Positions 17,239-19,327 of a stretch of 50,695 nucleotides of DNA are shown in pieces. The notes beneath the pieces are model-generated. The model searched no databases. It saw nothing but the letters and a program-made list of their open reading frames with translations, and was not told where the DNA came from. The position numbers and the translations under genes were made by a program. Origin of the DNA: Arcobacteraceae bacterium (lineage in GTDB: Bacteria; Campylobacterota; Campylobacteria; Campylobacterales; Arcobacteraceae); NCBI GenBank assembly GCA_029935705.1, contig JAOZJU010000006.1, forward strand, positions 1 through 50,695. Direction: 5' to 3'. Numbering within the stretch: the first letter of the stretch is position 1; each line of letters opens with the position of its first letter.

Positions 17239-18519
17239 TTATAATATTACAGTTGCTGTGGCACCTTTGGTTTTATTGTTTGTTATGCTTATCTTTGCTC
17301 CTATTGTGCTACTTGCATTTTTTGCTAAAAACAATCCCAAACCTACACCTTGTTTTTCTCCATATCTTTTAAATGGAGCAAAGATATCTACATCTTTATC
17401 TATACCTATACCTCTATCTATGATAGATACAACAGTTTTTGAGTTTTGTTGTGTCAGCTTTACTACTATATTTTCACCTTTTGGACTAAACTTTATAGCA
17501 TTTTGCACAAAATTTTGAACTATCTGCCCATATAAAGTAGCTTGTGTTGTGATAAAAAGTGAGCTTATATCACTCTTAAATAAAACCTTTATTTGTGATG
17601 ATTTACCAATAAGAGAAAAACTTTTGCAGATATCTTGCAAAAATGTGACAATATCAAAAGTAGTCTCTTTTTCAAACTTAGCTCCCTCTTGTCTTCCCAT
17701 ATCAAGCATAGATGATATGATCTTGTTTAGTTTGTTTATCTGCTCTATGTTTAAATTTATCGCTTGTTTGTATCTTGCTTCATCTCTTGGTTTTCTTATG
17801 GTTATCTCATTTTTAAGCTTCATTACAGCAAGTGGAGTTTTAAGCTCATGTGTGATACCTATAAACAACTCTTTTTGATATTTGATATGTGATTTTATTC
17901 TATTTGTAAGATTGTTTAAAGAGTTAACAATAGGATGAAACTCCAAAGGAAGTTCGCTTTTTTGTAGTTTTTGTATGTTGTTTATGTCAGTTTTTGATAT
18001 ATTTTTTGCAAATTTAGCAACAGGAGTGGTCAAAACTCTTGATATGGTCACAGAGTATATGATGACAAGTATCAACCCACCCATTGTAAATACAAATAGG
18101 TCTTTGAATATATTGTTAAGCATATTGTAGTTTTGTGTTAAATCTTGTGTGATGACGATAAAACCATCTTTAATTTCCCCAAAAGGATATTCAATCTTGT
18201 GGTAAACTCTATTATCTTCCTGCCAGCTACTATGGTATATCATCTGTTGTTTTTTGATGATTTGCATATCTATACTGGTGCTTGTTTTTGTAAGTTTGGT
18301 TAAATTTTTTAGACCATCTTCGCTTAGTTTGCCGATATTGTTAACCAATTTTGCATCTTGAATCATCTTTTTTTGAATATCAAGCGTCACGACAACTTTG
18401 ATATAGCTATAAAAGATAAAAGACAAAATAAGCAAAAATATCGTTGTAGATAAAACAAGCCGTTTTAAAAACTCCCTTTGAATGCTTTTATACAGAGTGC
18501 CTAATCCTCTTCTTTGCAA
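17239..18519 (-). CDS. Sensor histidine kinase
   Basis: Membrane sensor kinase paired with the response regulator upstream. Transmembrane segments lie at about residues 22-44 and 141-160, enclosing a roughly 95-residue periplasmic sensor. A HAMP-like linker follows. The phosphorylated histidine is H224 in GITHELKTPLAVMK. ATP-binding boxes are QNFVQNAIKFSP (N box), IIDRGIGI (G1) and GVGLGLFLAKNA (G2). The start is uncertain: the longest frame uses TTG at 18517-18519, overlapping the regulator by 19 nt without a clear ribosome site. The true start may be slightly downstream. The signal sensed cannot be read from sequence. Confidence 0.88.
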   Translation of the reverse strand: MQRRGLGTLYKSIQREFLKRLVLSTTIFLLILSFIFYSYIKVVVTLDIQKKMIQDAKLVNNIGKLSEDGLKNLTKLTKTSTSIDMQIIKKQQMIYHSSWQEDNRVYHKIEYPFGEIKDGFIVITQDLTQNYNMLNNIFKDLFVFTMGGLILVIIYSVTISRVLTTPVAKFAKNISKTDINNIQKLQKSELPLEFHPIVNSLNNLTNRIKSHIKYQKELFIGITHELKTPLAVMKLKNEITIRKPRDEARYKQAINLNIEQINKLNKIISSMLDMGRQEGAKFEKETTFDIVTFLQDICKSFSLIGKSSQIKVLFKSDISSLFITTQATLYGQIVQNFVQNAIKFSPKGENIVVKLTQQNSKTVVSIIDRGIGIDKDVDIFAPFKRYGEKQGVGLGLFLAKNASSTIGAKISITNNKTKGATATVIL

Positions 18520-19178
18520 TTATAACAAAACCTATAACCTCTTCTACGAATCGTCTCTATAGTTGATATCCCAAGTGGTTTATCCATCTTTTGACGAATT
18601 TGGTTTATCGCTACTTCTATCACATTTGGTGTTACAAGTTCTGGCTCTTCCCATATAGCATCAAGAAGTTGGTCTTTTGATACTATTTGACCCTTGTGTC
18701 TTGCTAAATGAGTTAGCACCTCAAAAGGTTTCCCTTTTAACTCTACTACTTTATCTTTATATGAAATCTTCTCTTCATCTGGATTTATGCTTAAATCCTC
18801 TATCACTATAGAGTTGCTTCCACCAAATCTAAGTTTTGCCTCAACTCTTGCTAAAAGTATATCATAATCGACAGGTTTAGTAACATAGTCATCAACTCCC
18901 ACACCAAATGCTTCAAGTATGCTATCTCTGTCATCTCTTGCGCTCATCATAATAACAGCAGTTCTGCCAAAACGATTTTTAATAATTTTAGTCAGCTCTA
19001 TACCGCTACCATCTGGAAGCATCCAGTCAACCAACACCATATCGTAGTGTCGCAAACCAATATAATACTCTCCATCTTTAAAATTTTCTACACTATCAAC
19101 TTGATATCCCTCATCCAATAACCCTTCAACAAGTGTCTTGTTTAGTGTTACTTCATCCTCTACTACCAATAATCTCAT
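18501..19178 (-). CDS. OmpR-family response regulator, HsrA/CosR-like
   Basis: A two-domain regulator of 225 aa. The receiver has a complete acidic pocket (E7/D8), phospho-acceptor D51, S79 and K101 (VTKP). The winged-helix DNA-binding domain contains long stretches that I recognise from H. pylori HsrA (HP1043) and Campylobacter CosR, including LKGKPFEVLTHLARH and EEPELVTPNVIEVAINQIRQ. Those orthologues are essential, atypical, phosphorylation-independent orphan regulators. This one keeps D51 and has a kinase gene overlapping its 3' end. C218, a position described as redox-relevant in CosR, is followed by C221, making a C-terminal CxxC. It heads the ten-gene run and has its own -10 box. Confidence 0.87.
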   Translation of the reverse strand: MRLLVVEDEVTLNKTLVEGLLDEGYQVDSVENFKDGEYYIGLRHYDMVLVDWMLPDGSGIELTKIIKNRFGRTAVIMMSARDDRDSILEAFGVGVDDYVTKPVDYDILLARVEAKLRFGGSNSIVIEDLSINPDEEKISYKDKVVELKGKPFEVLTHLARHKGQIVSKDQLLDAIWEEPELVTPNVIEVAINQIRQKMDKPLGISTIETIRRRGYRFCYNCKEED

Positions 19179-19200
19179 AAAAGCCTTCTTTTTTATTCCT

Positions 19201-19206
19201 ATTATA
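19201..19206 (-). promoter_or_regulatory. Extended -10 promoter for the response regulator operon
   Basis: The minus strand reads ATGGTATAATAGG, a perfect TATAAT with upstream TGG. It lies 22 nt before the regulator's start codon, so the leader is short. It is the only obvious promoter ahead of the long minus-strand run down to exbD. The flanking AT-rich segment 19220-19275 contains TTTGTCAACAAA-type near-palindromes that could be operators for the divergent thiC or for autoregulation. Confidence 0.55.
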
Positions 19207-19296
19207 CCATAAAATTTGCCATTTTTTCAAAAAATTGTTATAAATTTGAAAATTTGTCAACAAATTATGATTATTTTGCTACAAAACCATACTTTT

Positions 19297-19327
19297 TTGA
19301 CTAATTTTAATAATAGCTTGATACAAT
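19297..19327 (+). promoter_or_regulatory. Predicted promoter for thiC
   Basis: TTGACT at 19297-19302 and TACAAT at 19322-19327 are separated by 19 nt, slightly long. The thiC GTG start follows after AATAGGAGC. No TPP riboswitch is visible in the 170-bp gap: the conserved THI-box cores are not found and there is too little sequence between promoter and start to hold one. Confidence 0.45.

Follow-up and report, generated by a model that had tools for sequence, protein, structure and literature searches.

The window, a stretch of 50,695 nucleotides from an Arcobacteraceae bacterium, carries an HsrA/CosR-type response regulator (CosR) that keeps its phospho-acceptor and is adjoined by a sensor histidine kinase (CosS). 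We consider it highly probable that this is a canonical, phosphorylation-competent CosRS pair, inherited as such, and that the orphan forms arose separately by deletion of cosS followed by decay of the receiver. In Helicobacter pylori and Campylobacter jejuni respectively, HsrA and CosR are essential, work without phosphorylation and serve as drug targets, and our comparison supports the view that these kinase-less regulators descend from CosR–CosS pairs after kinase loss. Orthology, intact motifs, linkage, co-divergence and the pattern of loss were established here, whereas phosphotransfer in C. fetus is published (PMC3938529); we infer phosphotransfer in the window organism, its regulon and the order of events.

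The kinase was named CosS by Hwang et al. in 2014, with cosS downstream of cosR in non-thermotolerant campylobacters and homologues recorded in Arcobacter butzleri, W. succinogenes, S. deleyianum and H. pullorum (PMC3938529). C. fetus CosS phosphorylates the D51-bearing CosR of C. fetus, but no phosphotransfer to C. jejuni CosR occurred, even with N51D, and the thermotolerant Campylobacter species lack D51 in CosR (PMC3938529). The idea of an ancestral pair was in substance already published in that study (PMC3938529). The kinase-less cases g61, g42 and f4/g58 described below are absent from it, and we found no phylum-wide survey of CosR and CosS in the open-licence literature.

An intact CosR–CosS pair

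The features of the regulator are as follows.

18501–19178, minus strand: cosR (hsrA-type), OmpR-type response regulator gene; open reading frame with ATG start, 225 aa (Pfam receiver and Trans_reg_C, solved relatives, tree)
18843–19169, minus strand: CosR receiver domain with E7, D8, S79 and K101 (Pfam, alignment)
19026–19028, minus strand: codon of the phospho-acceptor D51 of cosR (alignment column 51)
18528–18752, minus strand: CosR winged-helix DNA-binding domain, with recognition helix PNVIEVAINQIRQKMD as in CosR/HsrA (Pfam, alignment; helix limits from PMC10936212)

Both domains are recognized by Pfam (receiver, 3e-23; Trans_reg_C, 4e-20). The residues first read from the sequence (E7/D8, D51, S79 and K101) are borne out by the alignment, in which columns 7, 8, 51, 79 and 101 hold E, D, D, S and K. 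Among proteins of solved structure, the regulator most resembles C. jejuni CosR (8UVX; 1.9e-104) and H. pylori HP1043 (2HQR; 2.7e-74), and the closeness of the DNA-binding half to HsrA/CosR, also claimed at the outset, proved real, at 84% identity to each; receiver identity is 58% to C. jejuni CosR and 34% to HP1043. Recognition helix α8 (limits 184–199; PMC10936212) is unchanged from CosR/HsrA. C. fetus CosR binds C. jejuni targets only weakly (PMC3938529), so regulators that share this helix may still differ in their regulons.

The sequence-only reading would have been refuted by a DNA-binding domain that groups with ordinary OmpR regulators, and the tree shows no such grouping: 104 HsrA/CosR sequences form one group with 100% SH-aLRT support, the window protein sits among the sequences of its own family, and the 22 OmpR-type paralogues, taken from the same phylum, all lie outside. 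The window regulator is a true HsrA/CosR orthologue. With D51 and the pocket intact and a kinase adjoining, it does not fit the orphan atypical response regulator class (HP1043 type); it fits the CosRS class, as a D51-bearing CosR beside a CosS orthologue with intact kinase motifs.

The kinase gene overlaps or directly follows cosR, depending on its start.

17239–18519, minus strand: cosS, sensor histidine kinase gene; open reading frame of 426 codons from TTG 18519 (Pfam), with CTG 18493–18495 the likelier start
18100–18402, minus strand: CosS sensor region of about 95 aa between two transmembrane helices (hydropathy; AlphaFold2 pLDDT 84)
17848–17850, minus strand: codon of H224, the presumed phosphorylated histidine, in the H-box ITHELKTP (kinase motif alignment)
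17245–17532, minus strand: CosS ATP-binding domain with N, G1, F and G2 boxes (Pfam, motifs)
18496–18510, minus strand: end of cosR, stop codon and probable cosS ribosome-binding site AAGAGGA, suggestive of translational coupling

HisKA (4e-10) and HATPase_c (4e-18) domains were detected by Pfam and the N, G1, F and G2 boxes are all intact; with D51 and H224 in place, the claim of a retained phospho-acceptor and an adjoining kinase holds. Because the CosS proteins of relatives begin two to four codons ahead of a conserved KSI motif in the alignment and TTG 18519 has no Shine–Dalgarno sequence, translation more likely starts at CTG 18493–18495, which has AAGAGGA in front of it and lies 5 nt beyond the cosR stop codon. 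The 19-nt overlap proposed earlier would exist with the TTG start and vanish with the likelier CTG; cosR and cosS are tightly coupled whichever holds. In two C. fetus-like loci (L144 and L145), the numbering published for C. fetus CosS (H190) is consistent with a start within the first transmembrane helix, and a conserved upstream TTG start gives H218.

The sensor region is predicted to adopt a helix–helix–four-strand fold outside any named family. Pfam matched 0 of 53 CosS sensor regions, and a Foldseek search of the PDB returned nothing at E ≤ 0.001, with weak likeness to PAS-like receptor domains, for example those of WalK and CitA. As nothing beyond this weak likeness emerged, we propose no signal for CosS.

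Loss of the kinase and of receiver constraint across the phylum

CosR is present in all 397 sampled genomes of the phylum, and the window locus is not special, the paired form being the rule in most families. Among 130 representatives, 70 hold CosS and a D51-bearing CosR, none holds CosS without D51, 17 keep D51 without CosS (groups g42, g43, g61 and f5) and 43 have neither, D51 being substituted or deleted in these 43, all of which lack CosS. Two genomes were counted as paired although cosS lies apart from cosR, about 3.5 kb away in G133 and on another contig in G210. Group g27 corresponds to H. pylori and g23 to the thermotolerant campylobacters by 99% CosR identity to the solved proteins; we infer the other group names. 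Orphan genomes searched whole contained no CosS-grade kinase, the best other kinase reaching E 5e-23 compared with 7e-71 or better for true CosS. CosS is never seen without D51, whereas several groups keep D51 with no CosS, so the kinase was most likely lost before the phospho-acceptor. The tree holds at least six changes of each trait, with few independent losses, and in an independent-pairs test of kinase loss against D51 loss significance was unreachable with so few supported events.

Three observations stand beside this survey. In one thermotolerant-type Campylobacter genome (L172/L173; G173, f3/g23), a frameshift, either real or a sequencing error, divides cosR, despite reports that this gene is essential; some genomes of families f6, f9 and f13 have a second, degenerate CosR-like paralogue beside the paired CosR (L198–L202); and records labelled Helicobacter pylori PMSS1 (L042) and Desulfosporosinus (L031) hold Arcobacteraceae-type cosRS and are probably mislabelled MAG contigs.

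The same family groups emerge from the CosS and CosR trees, and distances in CosS correlate more strongly with those of the receiver (r = 0.77) than with those of the DNA-binding domain (r = 0.50). It is highly improbable that CosS is unrelated to its neighbour CosR rather than being its cognate kinase: the separated cosS of G133 is a single genome, to be set against linkage in nearly all families, co-divergence of the two proteins, movement of the genes as a unit in Arcobacteraceae, receiver decay that follows the loss of exactly CosS, and the phosphotransfer seen in C. fetus (PMC3938529).

Loss of constraint in orphans is concentrated in the receiver, where mean entropy is 0.72 in paired and 1.42 in orphan proteins, as against 0.29 and 0.35 in the DNA-binding domain. 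Entropy rises most at positions 19, 51, 53, 55, 80, 82, 86, 103 and 105 and in helix 1, and the sites variable among orphans yet nearly constant among pairs are 8–9, 51, 53–57, 79–80, 82–83, 86, 103 and 105, together with 11, 13, 15, 18 and 19 of helix 1. These comprise the phosphorylation pocket and what, from the general features of the family, is probably the kinase-docking surface. Where receiver positions are invariant among the pairs, the three orphan lineages that have lost D51 depart at 22–30%, compared with no more than about 5% in paired families that served as held-out controls. The departure is 0% in g61, as expected if its kinase loss is recent.

The window CosR itself departs at 103 (F to V) and 105 (F to Y), which are invariant in other paired CosR and probably lie near the kinase contact, and also at 87 (E to I). 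These substitutions would suit a CosR that, like its H. pylori and C. jejuni counterparts, is already largely independent of phosphorylation, with CosS modulating it or acting mainly as a phosphatase, and so would the genetics of C. fetus, in which a cosR knockout was unobtainable and a cosS knockout was obtained with little phenotype (PMC3938529). We regard this as possible but doubtful, as all phosphorylation residues are intact in the window and the receiver residues are kept in every paired family, decaying only where CosS is absent.

We favour a phosphorylation-competent pair and propose the following mechanism. CosS, a membrane histidine kinase with an external sensor region of about 95 aa, would autophosphorylate on H224 and pass the phosphoryl group to D51 of CosR, which would act as an OmpR-type dimer on the direct-repeat targets used by HsrA/CosR and control an essential, conserved regulon. 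The pair would be the inherited state in the window lineage, and the orphans of Helicobacter, of thermotolerant Campylobacter and of a further genus (f4/g58) would stem from separate events in which cosS was deleted from cosR-cosS-fdx-ppx; phosphorylation pocket and kinase-docking surface would then have decayed with the DNA-binding half frozen. It also seems likely that the route from pair to essential orphan was repeated and ordered, with cosS deleted from one and the same position in each of several lineages (thermotolerant Campylobacter, f3/g61, f4/g58, Helicobacteraceae and perhaps f5), D51 persisting for a while (g42, g43 and g61), then pocket and docking surface decaying beside an unchanging DNA-binding domain. 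With forms across the phylum that range from paired through just-orphaned to fully degenerate, the timing and manner in which the DNA-binding half became independent of phosphorylation can be tested.

Gene order, promoter and genome context

In f3 (many genera), f4, f6–f10 and f12, cosR-cosS is followed by a ferredoxin gene (fdx) and, where the flank is long enough, by ppx; in g23, g61, g58 and f5 the order is cosR-fdx-ppx without cosS, with 2–370 nt between. In f5 cosR and fdx are 2–3 nt apart and D51 is kept, an arrangement that would fit an ancestral orphan form, with cosS inserted in the ancestor of the other families and later lost in some. We think this unlikely: the branch of the f5 CosR is long and fast, and the protein is missing the acidic residue D8 and other pocket residues, which looks like decay, and the orphans of f2, f3 and f4 are nested inside paired groups. 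The sequence-only reading had taken the paired form to be ancestral, which stands with respect to the Helicobacter and thermotolerant Campylobacter orphans and may or may not extend to the phylum root, as the deep family f5 lacks cosS, which could have been gained after f5 split off.

In Arcobacteraceae, the family of the window, ferredoxin and ppx never adjoin cosRS, and the ferredoxin gene of the window genome lies at another site; as fdx and ppx are not beside it, the cosRS pair moved as a unit in this family. The downstream moeA was rejected as part of the system, being nearby in 0 of 80 related loci, and is local.

One promoter element was predicted upstream of cosR.

19201–19206, minus strand: predicted extended −10 element TGG-TATAAT of the cosR promoter

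We sought the repeat type of HsrA/CosR targets, TTTAAG-N5-TTTAAG, by sequence scoring. Most other Arcobacteraceae match at 11/12 upstream of cosR and 21 of 26 sampled genomes of the family have a site at p < 0.05, whereas the window matches at 7/12 and its cosR promoter (19179–19300) has no CosR box, scoring no better than shuffles. Because the predicted box is missing, autoregulation of cosR may have been lost in the window genome. Elsewhere in most Arcobacteraceae (for example L092 and L106), a CTTAAA-N4/5-TTTAAA box is conserved about 80–100 nt before cosR, and read on the non-coding strand this box matches the HsrA motif, an arrangement also seen at hp1043.

The window genome (1.28 Mb, 99.6% complete) encodes about four histidine kinases and four clear response regulators; the three relatives belonging to other genera have far more, with 22–75 HATPase_c and 24–74 receiver matches, and signalling in the window genome is apparently strongly reduced. 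The window adds one more intact pair, and its retention where reduction has left about four response regulators and four kinases suggests that CosRS is hard to lose.

Comparison with named systems

The closest studied counterpart is CosRS of C. fetus (PMC3938529), which like the window has a D51-bearing CosR, cosS directly downstream, the same domains and tight gene coupling; both trees place C. fetus-like genomes (f3/g16) as orthologues. It differs in that CosS identity is only about 37% and in that the window has no ferredoxin and ppx genes downstream; the published phosphotransfer concerns C. fetus alone (PMC3938529). CosR and CosS of Aliarcobacter butzleri (Abu0375 and its neighbour; PMC3938529) belong to the same family as the window (f1) and share the paired form and D51. 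The CosS of the window genus has diverged, with 46% identity to its own genus mate and about 40% to others, and the window has no predicted CosR box upstream of cosR.

H. pylori HsrA/HP1043 and the CosR of C. jejuni and C. coli have a DNA-binding domain 84% identical to that of the window and the same recognition helix. Unlike the window regulator, both are orphans with degenerate receivers in genomes without CosS: HP1043 has four residues including D51 deleted, and C. jejuni/C. coli CosR has N or S at position 51.
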